Source: Bacteroidota bacterium (GTDB taxonomy: Bacteria > Bacteroidota > Bacteroidia > Bacteroidales > UBA7960). From it: a stretch of DNA of 64,000 nt. Both the position numbers and the translations under genes were made by a program. Positions 36,449 to 63,630 of this stretch are shown one piece after another (the stretch's first letter is position 1; the number at the start of each line of letters is the position of its first letter). Location: assembly GCA_007693555.1 (NCBI GenBank), contig REDJ01000071.1, forward strand, positions 1 through 64,000, read 5' to 3'. The notes below the pieces were generated by a model, which was not told where the DNA came from, searched no databases, and saw only the letters and a program-made list of their open reading frames with translations.

Positions 36449-37071
36449 GCACGCAGGTAAAAAAATAACAAAAGCATTACAAAAACGCCCGTAATATACC
36501 CGGCATAAACCTGCGGGGGATTATGGGCGTTTAATTTTATCCGGGCCGTACCTAAAAGGCCTGATAACAAAATAGTTATTATAATCAGAAGCGGCATTTC
36601 AAATCTTAACAATAAAGAAACAGCTATAAGAAATCCGGTAAAACCTCCCATGGATATCATATGTATGCTGATTTTCCAGTAAAAAGTAATTATAAAGCCA
36701 ATCAGTGTAAGCAAAGTTGCCCCCATAATAAAATAGCTCATTACAGATGGCAGATTTGCCTGTCGAAAAAGATAATAAGTAAATAAATAAAAAAATATAC
36801 TAACCAAAACCGGATATATTCTATCGGTTCTCTCATCAAGCAATACACTGCTGACAACTCCGATCCTCTTCAGGAAAAAGATGGCAAGTAAGGGTGCCAG
36901 ACAGGTATTGATAAATACAATAATCAAAATAAGCCTTTGAGCCTGTGATGAAACGGAGAAGGAGACATAAGAAGGGATAGCAAACAAAATAACTATCGCT
37001 ATACTTGGAATAATAAGCGGGTGGAGTATAGCACTTATCAGCCGTGCCCAGAAATTCTTCATGATCATCAA
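36445..37071 (-). CDS. PAP2-like multi-helix membrane protein with altered catalytic motifs
   Basis: A 208-residue protein with six membrane helices in the PAP2 (type 2 phosphatidic acid phosphatase) arrangement. The expected motifs are altered: the KX6RP region is RTDRIYP (81-87), PSGH is replaced by a MGG sequence (141-143) preceded by His137, and the third motif reads ARIKLNAH183NPPQ187 with Gln in place of the usual Asp. It may bind rather than cleave a lipid phosphate, or use a shifted histidine. Its start overlaps the end of rpoN by 4 nt, so the two are translationally coupled. Confidence 0.68.
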   Translation of the reverse strand: MMIMKNFWARLISAILHPLIIPSIAIVILFAIPSYVSFSVSSQAQRLILIIVFINTCLAPLLAIFFLKRIGVVSSVLLDERTDRIYPVLVSIFFYLFTYYLFRQANLPSVMSYFIMGATLLTLIGFIITFYWKISIHMISMGGFTGFLIAVSLLLRFEMPLLIIITILLSGLLGTARIKLNAHNPPQVYAGYITGVFVMLLLFFYLRA

Positions 37072-38567
37072 ACCAACTCCTTTCTTAACCTGGCCACGGG
37101 GATATTAAGTTGTTCACGATATTTAGCAACAGTTCTGCGGGCAATATGATAACCTTTGTCTTTCAAAATTTTGGTGAGTTGCTCGTCGGTAAGCGGTTTG
37201 GCTTTATCTTCTGCACCAATGCAGTCCTGGAGTATTTTTTTGACCTCCCGGGTGGAAACCTCCTCTCCCTCCTCATTTTGTAATGATTCAGAAAACAATG
37301 TTTTTAAAAGAAAAGTTCCATAGGGAGTTTGAACATATTTACTATTTGCAACACGTGAAATAGTTGAAATATCGAGATTTACAATATCTGCAATATCTTT
37401 CAGGATCATCGGCCTGATCTTGGTCTCATCCCCTGTCAAAAAATACTCTTTCTGAAAGTTAAGAATTGCCTCCATTGTAACCAGCAAAGTATTTTGTCTT
37501 TGGCGGATAGCATCAATAAACCATTTGGCCCCATCAAGTTTTTGCTTAACAAACATCATGGCTTCTTTTTGCCGGGTGTTTCCTTTTCCCTTTTGCTCAG
37601 CCATGGCTTCAAGCATTTCAGCATAGGTACGATTTATTTTTAGCTCCGGAGCATTTCTTGAATTCAGGGTTACTTCAAGATCACCATTGAAAGCGGTTAT
37701 AATAAAATCGGGCACAACATACTGAGCAGAACGACCGGCCTCAGTGAGGGTGTTGCCTGGCTTGGGATTAAGCTTGAGTATCTCATCTATGGCAGCCTTA
37801 AGTTCTTCGTCACTCAGGTTATGTTTTTTCTGGATTTTATGGTAGTGTTTTTTGGTAAAGTCGTTAAAGTTTTTCTCAAGCAACAAAGCTGCATCGTCAA
37901 TTGTCTTGTTTCCGTTTTTCTTTCTTCTGATTTGCAAAAGCAAACACTCCTGCAGGTCGCGGGCTCCAACACCGGGAGGATCAAACTCCTGCACTATGCG
38001 TAACAAACACAAGACCTCTTTGAAATCAGTTTTGATATTGAGTGAAAACGCAAGATCATCAATAAGGGAATGAATATCTCTTTGCAGATAGCCGGCATCA
38101 TCAATATTTCCGATGATGTGCTTTGCAACCAATTCCTCCTGTTCAGAAAGGTCTCTCAACCCCAATTGAGAAAGTAAATATTCCTGGAAGCTAAAGGAAG
38201 AAGAAATAGGGATTTCCTTGTGCTCATCATCTGCGCTTATGTTATGGGAGGCAAGCTTGTAATTGGGTATTTCATCATCTTCAATATAGTCGCTGATATC
38301 AAATTCGTTATCCGGGTCATTTTCCGGTTCGTCAAAATCCCGGTCGTCCACATCACCTTCAAACTCATCATCAAAATCCTCAACCTGACTGTCATCAACA
38401 TCCTCAATCTCATCATCTTCACCTTCTTCCAGAGCGGGGTTCTCTTCTATTTCTTCTTTGATACGCTGTTCAAGCAATACGGTGGGTAGCTGCAGCAATT
38501 TCATCAGTTGAATCTGCTGCGGTGATAATTTTTGCAAAAGCTTTTGCTGTAACCGTTGCTTTAACAT
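37068..38567 (-). CDS. rpoN: RNA polymerase sigma-54 factor
   Basis: A 499-residue sigma-54. The Gln/Leu-rich activator-interacting region I (about 1-50, QQKLLQKLSPQQIQLMKLLQ), a long acidic linker (about 50-110), the core-binding domain and the C-terminal RpoN box (ARRTVAKYREQL) are all present. It recognises -24/-12 promoters and needs AAA+ activators; two are encoded in this window, near 50 and 62 kb. It lies 103 nt after asnS on the same strand and overlaps the next gene by 4 nt. The unusually acidic linker is typical of Bacteroidota. Confidence 0.95.
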   Translation of the reverse strand: MLKQRLQQKLLQKLSPQQIQLMKLLQLPTVLLEQRIKEEIEENPALEEGEDDEIEDVDDSQVEDFDDEFEGDVDDRDFDEPENDPDNEFDISDYIEDDEIPNYKLASHNISADDEHKEIPISSSFSFQEYLLSQLGLRDLSEQEELVAKHIIGNIDDAGYLQRDIHSLIDDLAFSLNIKTDFKEVLCLLRIVQEFDPPGVGARDLQECLLLQIRRKKNGNKTIDDAALLLEKNFNDFTKKHYHKIQKKHNLSDEELKAAIDEILKLNPKPGNTLTEAGRSAQYVVPDFIITAFNGDLEVTLNSRNAPELKINRTYAEMLEAMAEQKGKGNTRQKEAMMFVKQKLDGAKWFIDAIRQRQNTLLVTMEAILNFQKEYFLTGDETKIRPMILKDIADIVNLDISTISRVANSKYVQTPYGTFLLKTLFSESLQNEEGEEVSTREVKKILQDCIGAEDKAKPLTDEQLTKILKDKGYHIARRTVAKYREQLNIPVARLRKELV

Positions 38568-49945: not shown

Positions 49946-51316
49946 TTAATCCAATGAAATCCCATATTGTTTAATTTTATTATAAAGTGTTTTCCTGTCA
50001 ATATTAAGTATTCTTGCTGCTTTCGATTTATTAAACTTTGCTTTTTCCAATGTTGAAATAATTACTTCCTTTTCTGTATGACCTGTATGACTTTTCAAAT
50101 CATGATTATTAGCTGTAAGCATATCCTGCTTTAAAAAATCTGAAAATATAATTTCATGCGGAAGTGATTCCACTGTTATTTTATCATCAATTGAAAGCAA
50201 CACAGCTCTTCTTATTACATTTTTCACTTCTCTTATATTTCCGGGCCAGGTATACCTGTAAAAATGATCCATTATATCATCCGGTATTGAATTTACACTT
50301 CGTCCCAGTTCTTCATTAGCCTTTTTGAGAAAAAACTCAGCAAAAACAACTATATCTTCCTTCCTTTCTCTCAATGGAGGGACCAAAACAGAAAATTCAT
50401 TAAGCCGATGGTAAAGATCTTCACGAAATGATCCGTTTTTAACTGCCTTAGCCAGGTCTTCATTGGAGGCAGTAATAATTCTAACATTGACCGAAATATC
50501 CTTGTTACTCCCAATTTTCTTTATTTTTCTTTCTTGTATGGCACGTAATAATTTTACCTGAACCTCATAAGATAAATTTCCTATCTCATCAAGAAAAAGT
50601 GTTCCACCATTTGCTACTTCAAACTGTCCGATTTTATCATTGAGCGCACCTGTAAAAGAACCTTTGATATGGCCGAAAAACTCACTTCCTGCAAGTTCCT
50701 TTGATAATGCTCCACAGTCAATCGCTACGAACGGGAAATCATGTCTGTTGCTCTGTGCATGTATTTTTCTGGCAATGTATTCTTTACCCGTTCCACTTTC
50801 ACCCTGGATAATCACAGACATATCTGTTGGAGCTACCAGATCAATATATTTATGTATTGCGAGCGATTCGGGGCTGTTTGCAAAAACATATTCAAGGACT
50901 TTTGTACTTTTATTGTCATTGGAACTCTTCAAAGATGGCGGTCCAGAGGATATTACTGAGGTTTTCAAACCATTTTTCAAAAACAGATATATTTCATCAG
51001 GATTAACAGGTTTGGTTACATATTCATAAGCTCCGAGCTTGATGGCTTTTACAGCCATTCTTATATCAGCATATGCTGTCATTATGATGACAAGAGAATC
51101 AGGGGTTTTGGTGGTTATATCTTTCAAAAGTTCAAAACCACTTTTATCCGGCAACCTGAAATCACTTAAAATGGCATCATACCTTCTGTCAGATAAAAGC
51201 TTTATGGCTTCCTGATAAGAAAATGCCTCATCAACCTGAAATCCTTTCCTTGTTAAATATGATTTCAGCATGTTGCAAAACCCAACATCATCGTCAACAA
51301 TTAAAACTTTGAACAT
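49946..51316 (-). CDS. NtrC-family sigma-54 response regulator
   Basis: A 456-residue response regulator. A receiver domain (1-120, phosphoacceptor Asp52 in SDFRLPD, TAYAD, TKP) is followed by a sigma-54 AAA+ domain (Walker A GESGTGKE 172-179, Walker B FLDEIG 241-246) and a Fis-type helix-turn-helix at the C-terminus (SKAARILNIDRKTLYNKIKQ). The loop that contacts sigma-54 reads GSFTGA (219-224) instead of GAFTGA. It needs rpoN, encoded near 38 kb. No histidine kinase gene is adjacent, so its partner lies elsewhere. Confidence 0.92.
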   Translation of the reverse strand: MFKVLIVDDDVGFCNMLKSYLTRKGFQVDEAFSYQEAIKLLSDRRYDAILSDFRLPDKSGFELLKDITTKTPDSLVIIMTAYADIRMAVKAIKLGAYEYVTKPVNPDEIYLFLKNGLKTSVISSGPPSLKSSNDNKSTKVLEYVFANSPESLAIHKYIDLVAPTDMSVIIQGESGTGKEYIARKIHAQSNRHDFPFVAIDCGALSKELAGSEFFGHIKGSFTGALNDKIGQFEVANGGTLFLDEIGNLSYEVQVKLLRAIQERKIKKIGSNKDISVNVRIITASNEDLAKAVKNGSFREDLYHRLNEFSVLVPPLRERKEDIVVFAEFFLKKANEELGRSVNSIPDDIMDHFYRYTWPGNIREVKNVIRRAVLLSIDDKITVESLPHEIIFSDFLKQDMLTANNHDLKSHTGHTEKEVIISTLEKAKFNKSKAARILNIDRKTLYNKIKQYGISLD

Positions 51317-61584: not shown

Positions 61585-62964
61585 TCATATACCCAGTTTT
61601 TTCATTTTCTTCCAAAGAGCAACTCTGCTGATACCCAAGTATTCTGCGGTTTTGGTTTGGTTCCAGTCATTCATTTCAAGCACACCCATGAGTTGTTCTT
61701 TATTGATAGTCAATCTTCTGTTTTTATTTTTCCTGAAGCCTTCAGCATAATAAACTGAGGCTGAAAGATCTCTCTCTTTTTTATCCACCGGTTCCTTAGG
61801 ACCTTTTCTGATTTCTTCCGGCAGATCCGCCAGTTCTATTAATCCTGACCGAACCAATACGAATGCATGTTCAATGGCATTTTGGAGCTCTCTTATATTT
61901 CCCGGCCATGAATAAGTCAATAATGCCTTCATTGCCTCTTTGCTGAGCCCTTTTACACTTCTTGAAGTTGTCCGGTTATACTTTTCCACAAAATAATCTA
62001 TCAACAAAGGAATATCCAGATAACGTTCTCTCAGGGATGGCATTTTTATATTAAACACATTCAAACGGTAAAAGAGGTCCTCTCTGAAAATATTATGTCG
62101 GATGAGCTCACGCAAATCCTTATTGGTTGCAGCTACTATCCGCATATCCACTTTTATGGTTTTGTTGTCACCAACTCTTTCAATAACTTTTTCCTGTAAT
62201 ACTCTTAGCAACTTTACCTGCAGCGATTGAGATATCTCTGCAATCTCATCAAGGAATATGGTTCCACCATTGGCTTGTTCAAACTTCCCTGTTTTATCTT
62301 TATACGCATCTGTAAATGCGCCTTTCACGTGACCAAAGAGCTCACTCTCAAGCAGGGTTTCGGTTAATGCAGCACAATTTACTTTTATCAGAGGTTTGTT
62401 TTTTCTGTCTGAAAGCTCATGAATGGCATCTGCAACAAGTTCTTTCCCTGTACCACTTTCTCCCTGAATGAGCACATTCACCTCAGAATCAGCAGCCAAA
62501 CTTATCATTCGGTAAATTTCTACTATTGCAGGGTCATGTCCGATTATTTTCTTTCTCAGGATAAACTCACCTTTTCCGAATGTGCCCGGCGAATAGGTGA
62601 TACAATCCATTTCGCCCGAAATATCTGTAATATTGAAAATGTAGAATTCAGAACTTTTATGTGTAAAACCTTTCACCGAAAAATAAACCAGGCGGTCATC
62701 ACCATAGCTTTTTAAAATCAATGTTTTATGAAAATCTCGTTTGCCCTGATTAATCATATTTTGCATACAATCATCCATGCTGAATAATCGCATATCTGTT
62801 GTATAATATACCTGATCTCTCATATTTGCATGGATACTGTTTCTTGTGCCTGAAAATATTTTTTCCCTCGCAAATTCATTCATGTATTGAATATTCAACT
62901 GATTATCAGTAATTATCAGTCCACAGGGCAAGGAATCAGCAATGGCTTTAAAATCTTTTTCCAT
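61585..62964 (-). CDS. PAS-domain sigma-54 activator (Fis-family)
   Basis: A 459-residue enhancer-binding protein. A PAS sensor (1-120, GLIITDNQLNIQYMNEFARE) replaces the receiver domain; a sigma-54 AAA+ domain follows (Walker A GESGTGKE near 168, Walker B IFLDEIAE near 236) and ends in a Fis-type helix-turn-helix (KTAEYLGISRVALWKKM). The sigma-54 contact loop is GAFTDA (215-220). It needs RpoN, encoded near 38 kb, and sits next to a sigma-54 promoter whose upstream region carries GTTAAC sites, so it probably regulates the DUF302 gene and itself. Confidence 0.93.
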   Translation of the reverse strand: MEKDFKAIADSLPCGLIITDNQLNIQYMNEFAREKIFSGTRNSIHANMRDQVYYTTDMRLFSMDDCMQNMINQGKRDFHKTLILKSYGDDRLVYFSVKGFTHKSSEFYIFNITDISGEMDCITYSPGTFGKGEFILRKKIIGHDPAIVEIYRMISLAADSEVNVLIQGESGTGKELVADAIHELSDRKNKPLIKVNCAALTETLLESELFGHVKGAFTDAYKDKTGKFEQANGGTIFLDEIAEISQSLQVKLLRVLQEKVIERVGDNKTIKVDMRIVAATNKDLRELIRHNIFREDLFYRLNVFNIKMPSLRERYLDIPLLIDYFVEKYNRTTSRSVKGLSKEAMKALLTYSWPGNIRELQNAIEHAFVLVRSGLIELADLPEEIRKGPKEPVDKKERDLSASVYYAEGFRKNKNRRLTINKEQLMGVLEMNDWNQTKTAEYLGISRVALWKKMKKLGI

Positions 62965-62976
62965 AAAACGTTTTAA

Positions 62977-63028
62977 GTTAACAATTGGTTAGCAAAGTTA
63001 ATGCTTTTTGTTAACTAAATGTGTTAAC
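62977..63028. promoter_or_regulatory. Cluster of GTTAAC sites (candidate activator binding array)
   Basis: GTTAAC at 62977, 63010 and 63023 and near-copies GTTAGC at 62988 and GTTAAT at 62997, spaced 9-13 nt, lie between the activator gene and the sigma-54 promoter. GTTAAC is self-complementary. A further palindrome CCTGTTTAACAGG (63056-63068) lies closer to the promoter. Confidence 0.6.
62993..63000 (-). promoter_or_regulatory. -7 box of the PAS activator gene
   Basis: The minus strand reads TAACTTTG, a perfect TAnnTTTG, 28 nt before the start codon at 62964. It overlaps the GTTAGC/GTTAAT sites, which suggests autoregulation. Confidence 0.45.
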
Positions 63029-63081
63029 TTTTGTGCTTACATTATCATGTATATACCTGTTTAACAGGCATATAATTGTTA

Positions 63082-63096
63082 TGGCATAAAAATCGC
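63082..63096 (+). promoter_or_regulatory. Sigma-54 -24/-12 promoter of the DUF302 gene
   Basis: TGGCATA-AAAA-TCGC matches the sigma-54 consensus TGGCACG-N4-TTGC in the invariant GG and GC and in spacing (15 nt overall), with mismatches only at two -24 positions and one -12 position. It lies 54 nt before ATG 63151. Confidence 0.65.
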
Positions 63097-63150
63097 CTTT
63101 TTATAATGAGAAAATCTAAAATGAATAAATAAACATTAAACTATACAGTT

Positions 63151-63630
63151 ATGACTAAACAAAACATTTTATTCCTTACAGGTGGATTACTGACAGGTAT
63201 TATACTCACTGCCCTACTGGCTTACAAATCAGCTCCAGGAATGATGCTGAAAGAAGCTGAAAGTAAATACAATTTTGAAAGATCTGTGGAGATTTTTGAG
63301 CAAACCGCACTGGAAATGGGTTGGAAAATCCCAACCGTTCACGACATGCAGGAAACAATGAAAAATTTTGGGAAGGATGTGGCTCAAATGAAAGTTTTTG
63401 AACTTTGCCATCCTGAGCATGCCTACGAAATTTTAAGCCGTGATAAGGAAAGAATTGTTTCAAATATGATGCCTTGCCGTGTTTCTATATACGAAAAGTC
63501 TGATGGCAATACTTATATTTCATGGATGAATACTTCAATGATGGGAAATATGATGGGTGGCGTAATTGCTGATGTAATGGGAGTTGCTTCTGCAGAAAGT
63601 GAAAAAATGATTTCAGCCATAAAAAAGTAA
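63151..63630 (+). CDS. DUF302 domain protein with membrane anchor
   Basis: A 159-residue protein with one N-terminal transmembrane helix (6-24) and a DUF302 domain (about 40-150) with the family segments CHPEHAYEIL and MPCRVSIYEKSDGNTYISW. Function is unknown; DUF302 proteins are linked to metal, redox or anaerobic stress functions in some genomes. The sigma-54 promoter and PAS activator directly upstream suggest that it responds to a small-molecule or redox signal. Confidence 0.88.
   Translation: MTKQNILFLTGGLLTGIILTALLAYKSAPGMMLKEAESKYNFERSVEIFEQTALEMGWKIPTVHDMQETMKNFGKDVAQMKVFELCHPEHAYEILSRDKERIVSNMMPCRVSIYEKSDGNTYISWMNTSMMGNMMGGVIADVMGVASAESEKMISAIKK

Follow-up and report, generated by a model that had tools for sequence, protein, structure and literature searches.

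A predicted one-component sigma-54 switch at a DUF302 gene and an associated promoter class with an upstream dyad in a lineage of Bacteroidales

Introduction

How is a DUF302 gene switched on that lies divergent from the gene of a PAS-type sigma-54 activator (bEBP), and what roles do the repeated GTTAAC-type sites and the palindrome between the two genes play? The locus is part of a 64,000-nucleotide stretch of a Bacteroidota genome, here called the window, and a reading of its sequence alone had proposed that the activator binds the GTTAAC sites, turns on DUF302 from a near-consensus -24/-12 promoter and limits its own expression. Across bacteria the sigma-54 promoter is generally regarded as almost unvarying, and searches for it begin from the TTGC rule. 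We followed the locus through 47 genomes of the window's family, all of them draft assemblies, and compared its promoter with that of an unrelated operon within and outside the family.

Results

Organization of the locus

Every element listed in the sequence-only reading, rpoN included, is found in the window sequence where it had been placed, exact to the base (Table 1). The activator has the two domains that define a bEBP, a Sigma54_activat AAA+ domain (PF00158, E=6e-72) and a Fis-type helix-turn-helix (HTH_8, PF02954, E=2e-11), together with a weak Pfam match to PAS; two cysteines in its sensor region and the following linker, C66 and C121, are invariant in the alignment. The sigma-54 contact loop (residues 215-220, 62305-62322) reads GAFTDA in the window copy, where nine aligned relatives have G-[AS]-FTGA; the window form is either genuine or an artefact of assembly and could weaken the sigma-54 contact of that copy. 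A second PF00158 match in the window belongs to a bEBP-like response regulator at 49946-51316 on the minus strand.

The product of the target gene carries a DUF302 domain (PF03625, E=9e-16) that scores 58 bits against a curated cut-off of 23, is weakly similar to the solved structure 1q9u and, read from the sequence, begins with a hydrophobic segment; C86 and C109 are invariant in the alignment. The literature on DUF302 and on sulfur trafficking yielded no direct function for the domain. We consider a thiol, sulfide or metal signal for the switch plausible. The related metagenome-assembled genomes are titled Bacteroidales bacterium, and many carry isolate names associated with soda-lake sediments. 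In other families, judged from N-terminal sequences only, DUF302 genes lie behind thioredoxin-like and thioredoxin-reductase-like genes (L104, L108) or behind an ArsR-type-regulator-like gene (L109).

Table 1. Features of the activator-DUF302 locus, and rpoN, in the window
Feature	Position	Strand	Evidence
rpoN (sigma-54), Ile at the E. coli E378 position	37068..38567	-	Alignment to solved structures
PAS-type sigma-54 activator (bEBP): sensor, AAA+ sigma-54 domain, HTH_8	61585..62964	-	Pfam, family orthologs
Five-site GTTAAC-type array, candidate activator sites	62977..63028	.	Enrichment, conserved register, genome uniqueness
-7 box TAACTTTG, housekeeping promoter of the activator gene	62993..63000	-	23/24 divergent loci
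25-bp dyad TA-N5-CTG-N5-CAG-N5-TA, centre about -46	63050..63074	.	Common to HlyD promoters, same register
Palindrome CCTGTTTAACAGG, inside the 25-bp dyad	63056-63068	.	Perfect inverted repeat in the window
Sigma-54 promoter TGGCAT-N5-TCGC, start predicted at about 63108	63082..63096	+	Conserved, fixed spacing
DUF302 target gene, hydrophobic N-terminus	63151..63630	+	Pfam, 30 family orthologs, invariant C86 and C109

The GTTAAC array

The array consists of GTTAAC at 62977-62982, GTTAGC at 62988-62993, GTTAAT at 62997-63002 and GTTAAC again at 63010-63015 and 63023-63028, with successive spacings of 11, 9, 13 and 13 nt, and the sites start at -131, -120, -111, -98 and -85 from the predicted +1 (63108). 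Hence the five sites at 9-13-nt spacing claimed from the window stand, and they are conserved across relatives: the 24 loci in which the activator is divergent together hold 61 copies of GTTAAC, where dinucleotide shuffles give 2.4 +/- 1.4, though shuffle statistics overstate independence because these loci are related. Many relatives keep a register identical to the window numbers while others have a set that differs little from it apart from a shift of about 11 bp, as expected for proteins bound on one helix face; exact GTTAAC is absent from one locus (L023). A pair of GTTAAC sites spaced by 3-13 nt occurs once in the whole genome, in the window array, against eight occurrences of the reversed control pattern. 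A search for a wider regulon found no second pair in that genome, and in the relatives other pairs are scattered at a frequency about equal to that of the control. We propose, from sequence, that these are the sites to which the activator would bind.

Co-occurrence of activator, array and target

A DUF302 ortholog, 60-85% identical to the window's copy among relatives, is found in 30 of the 47 family genomes, and 27 of these 30 also carry an ortholog of the activator, which never occurs in the family without DUF302. The two genes are divergent and adjacent in 24 genomes (in two of these interrupted by a contig end), split by a contig end in G026, where the pair was read from overlapping ends, and separated in G007 and G022, where the activator gene lies elsewhere. 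The search of the DUF302-carrying family genomes did not find the activator in G002, G041 and G043, and at the DUF302 loci of these three the array and the sigma-54 promoter are both absent. Nearly all activator-carrying family genomes have the array beside DUF302, as the sequence-only reading had asked to be checked, together with a -24/-12 element. Outside the family, none of 20 order-level DUF302 neighbourhoods contained the pairing.

A housekeeping sigma factor might transcribe DUF302 instead, the TGGCA...TCGC match being due to chance, and the -12 half, which is not TTGC, would fit this, as would the three relatives whose DUF302 gene lacks the element, two of them with TAnnTTTG boxes. However, the element is present in 22 of the 24 divergent loci against 0.1 expected from shuffles, its spacing is fixed, it is lost exactly where the activator is missing, and the same element precedes HlyD in 30 of 30 family genomes. 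We find a chance match scarcely credible and reject it on the grounds of conservation and co-loss.

The activator gene has its own promoter, a Bacteroidota housekeeping -7 box of the form TAnnTTTG. In the window the box, TAACTTTG on the minus strand (CAAAGTTA at 62993-63000), overlaps two GTTAAC-type sites, just as had been claimed. Among the divergent loci it recurs in 23 of 24 (0.4 in shuffles), in most of them at a distance of 26-44 nt from the start of the activator gene, on its upstream side. By eye, the -33 TTTG element has no consistent copy at the usual distance before the activator gene; it was likewise not found genome-wide in F. johnsoniae, as quoted in PMC7366714. A TAnnTTTG box also lies 36-44 nt before the DUF302 start at two loci of genomes in which the activator was not found (L031, L032), which suggests a switch of DUF302 from sigma-54 to the housekeeping factor.

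In almost all loci the array sites lie around and across the -7 box of the activator gene, which could mean that the array mainly represses the activator's own gene and that DUF302 is controlled otherwise. The two genomes with a moved activator bear on this directly. The DUF302 loci of G007 and G022 keep the array and the promoter and have lost TAACTTTG, and the moved activator genes are without a GTTAAC array; the comparison thus links the array chiefly to DUF302 and TAACTTTG to the gene of the activator. The array sites, moreover, hold their register to the sigma-54 promoter, and we regard an array devoted to self-repression as quite improbable. Co-occurrence, co-loss, retention of array and promoter after the activator has moved and fixed register together support trans-activation of DUF302 with autoregulation, the latter likely, on these comparisons, but secondary to control of DUF302. 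The core circuit that had been read from the window, with activator, array, sigma-54 promoter, DUF302 target and self-limitation, thereby gains comparative evidence, while in its binding step, of activator to GTTAAC, it is still something that we infer.

A lineage-specific -12 element

The -24/-12 pattern upstream of DUF302 is the sole zero-mismatch match in the window, and it has TGGCA with a G 13 nt after its T (-13), the spacing of a sigma-54 promoter; this G is present in 25 of 27 family DUF302 loci and in 30/30 HlyD loci. The textbook TTGC of the -12 element is found neither in the window nor in the family. Instead the DUF302 loci have the form TGGCAY-N5-T-[A/C/G]-G, and T stands before the G position in just two of 27 aligned promoters, both of which are also without the G; the -12 elements of L020 and L025 are degenerate. 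The description of the promoter as near-consensus therefore holds for its -24 half and exact spacing and fails for its -12 half, which follows a rule of the lineage.

In the window's own genome the pattern TGGCAY-N5-TNGC has 54 matches against 23 for a control, and 27 of 30 matches examined lie inside genes, so that the genome-wide count is uninformative alone; it did, however, lead to the promoter of a HlyD-type efflux operon (L035), an unrelated sigma-54 candidate that we took to test whether the -12 form is specific to DUF302. In all 30 family HlyD orthologs the sequence TGGCAY-N5-T-[A/C/G]-G, with TGGTAC in place of TGGCAY at least once, lies 46-60 nt before the gene, and in none does T precede G. 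We then sampled 60 HlyD upstream regions from other Bacteroidota with a pattern that left the position before G free. Twenty-five of the 60 match, and all 25 have T before G (TTG); the next base is A or G in 22 of them and C in one. The comparisons point to two changes: across the phylum sample the C that follows G has been lost, and the window's lineage has lost the T that precedes G.

All 31 Bacteroidota RpoN sequences compared have Ile or Val at the position of E. coli E378, beside a conserved ST[IV]SR motif. E378 has been implicated genetically in recognition of the -12 GC (PMC4496707); it crosslinks to promoter DNA, and its helix-turn-helix contacts DNA around -14 (PMC5505868). We propose that Ile/Val at this position may be a partial reason for the altered -12 element, the relation being one of correlation only. 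The change at E378 alone cannot explain the family-specific loss of T, since relatives that use TTG also have Ile/Val.

A dyad shared by unrelated promoters

The palindrome upstream of the promoter, which had been noticed next to the array, is indeed present, but rather than a site of the activator's type it is the core of a 25-bp dyad that stands before unrelated operons. Counted from the T of TGGCA, the dyad has TA at -32/-31, CTG at -25 to -23, CAG at -17 to -15 and TA at -9/-8, with its centre 20 nt upstream of TGGCA and about -46 from the predicted start. It is common to the DUF302 and the unrelated HlyD efflux promoters in identical register: a consensus made from HlyD alone predicts the DUF302 set with a score of 0.75 (0.30 +/- 0.025 for background) and the DUF302-derived consensus predicts the HlyD set with 0.81 (0.31 +/- 0.03), scores that are attained at offset zero only. 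At the HlyD promoters of other Bacteroidota the dyad score is near background.

In 12 genomes of the genus, dyad plus promoter with at most three mismatches gives 74 matches against four for the reversed control, the window's site being a zero-mismatch match, and most of the sites examined are intergenic. The genes behind these promoters encode TolC-type efflux proteins, HlyD, MacB/FtsX components, beta-lactamase-fold proteins, TonB-plug proteins and small exported proteins. Within pattern-independent family loci (1.0 Mb, both strands), strong dyads before such promoters are at offset -32 in 31 of 31 cases. An 800-kb sample from another family of the order has two dyad promoters against none in the control, both with a base other than T at -12, and the promoter type thus reaches beyond one family; 259 kb of other-family loci contained none.

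In the window's genome one dyad promoter stands before a TolC-type gene located behind genes for a bEBP response regulator and a kinase (L299, C81), and another before an HlyD-ABC-MacB efflux operon whose divergent neighbour is a large PAS/GAF histidine kinase (L304, C7). In several genomes dyad promoters are followed by genes for small proteins, about 85-125 residues long, whose N-termini are signal-like (L309, L312, L295), and the small proteins scanned with Pfam (from L271, L284, L295 and L312) gave no match.

Its place between array and promoter and its perfect inverted repeat in the window might mark the palindrome as one more site bound by the DUF302 activator. Yet in ten genomes in which no ortholog of the activator was found, the HlyD promoters carry the dyad at 6-9 of 10 consensus positions, so that it is not the activator's site; it also precedes several other operons, and it is unlike GTTAAC. 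This reading is very improbable, and the HlyD promoters without an activator ortholog lead us to reject it.

We hypothesize that the dyad is probably the binding site of a shared, putative partner of the sigma-54 polymerase. In a fuller version, to which we give slightly less than even credence, an undescribed general partner of the polymerase reads the dyad and has co-evolved with the altered -12 element and an RpoN without Glu378. The sigma-54 holoenzyme itself, for example through its alpha C-terminal domains, might alternatively read the dyad as an extended promoter element. The exact register to TGGCA, with all 31 strong dyads at one offset, and a dyad that immediately adjoins the -24 element and is common to several operons favour such direct reading; its strict symmetry about a central CTG/CAG, which to us resembles the site of a separate dimeric DNA-binding protein, and its absence from other Bacteroidota HlyD promoters do not, and we consider it possible, though less likely than not. 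The dyad predicts one of two things, a general protein partner or an extended contact of the polymerase. Literature searches of article text returned no report of the dyad or of a Bacteroidota -12 rule.

Discussion

We are fairly confident that the locus is a one-component, one-target sigma-54 switch at DUF302, with a lineage-specific promoter class and a dyad. Conservation, co-loss, register, the uniqueness of the array, the common dyad and the RpoN substitution are the sequence evidence that supports it; activator binding to GTTAAC, activation, autorepression, the dyad-binding partner and the signal are the parts that we infer. In the proposed mechanism the activator would be made from a housekeeping promoter (TAACTTTG) sited within its own GTTAAC array and would sit on that array, at 85-131 bp before the predicted transcription start of DUF302. 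Its N-terminal domain would sense the signal, upon which the AAA+ ATPase would open sigma-54 RNA polymerase at TGGCAT-N5-TCGC and turn on the membrane-anchored DUF302 protein; the occupied array would meanwhile limit the activator's own expression. The T-[A/C/G]-G -12 element and the 25-bp dyad would form a lineage-specific promoter class that serves several operons.

The significance of the promoter lies in a deep lineage that departs from TTGC, a departure that accompanies a substitution at an RpoN residue implicated in -12 recognition. Natural variation thus makes the sigma-54 reading of the -12 element testable, and it offers a usable pattern for Bacteroidota sigma-54 regulons that TTGC-based searches may miss. 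The DUF302 gene, for its part, is tied to its own dedicated sensor-regulator.

The NorR-norVW and PspF-pspA circuits pair a divergent bEBP with a sigma-54 target and are autoregulated. The window circuit is like them in its divergent one-component activator, its few upstream sites that overlap the activator's own promoter and its one adjacent target, and differs in its sensor domain, its GTTAAC-type sites, its DUF302 target, its Bacteroidota housekeeping promoter and the dyad beside the -24 element. Within the phylum, the sigma-54 regulon of Flavobacterium psychrophilum, with motif SM4, was established by start-site mapping and promoter mutagenesis (PMC9723704). It is likewise a Bacteroidota regulon with -24/-12 promoters, but the text of that article presents SM4 as a typical -24/-12 motif and names no upstream dyad, and the regulon is centred on chaperones and gliding. 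Class-wise predictions of sigma-54 regulons that include Bacteroidia (seeds, validated promoters; 56 species; PMC12316311) place FtsX-like ABC permeases of Bacteroidia under sigma-54 control, in agreement with the efflux genes found here, whereas the text of that report gives neither the -12 variant nor the dyad (PMC12316311).
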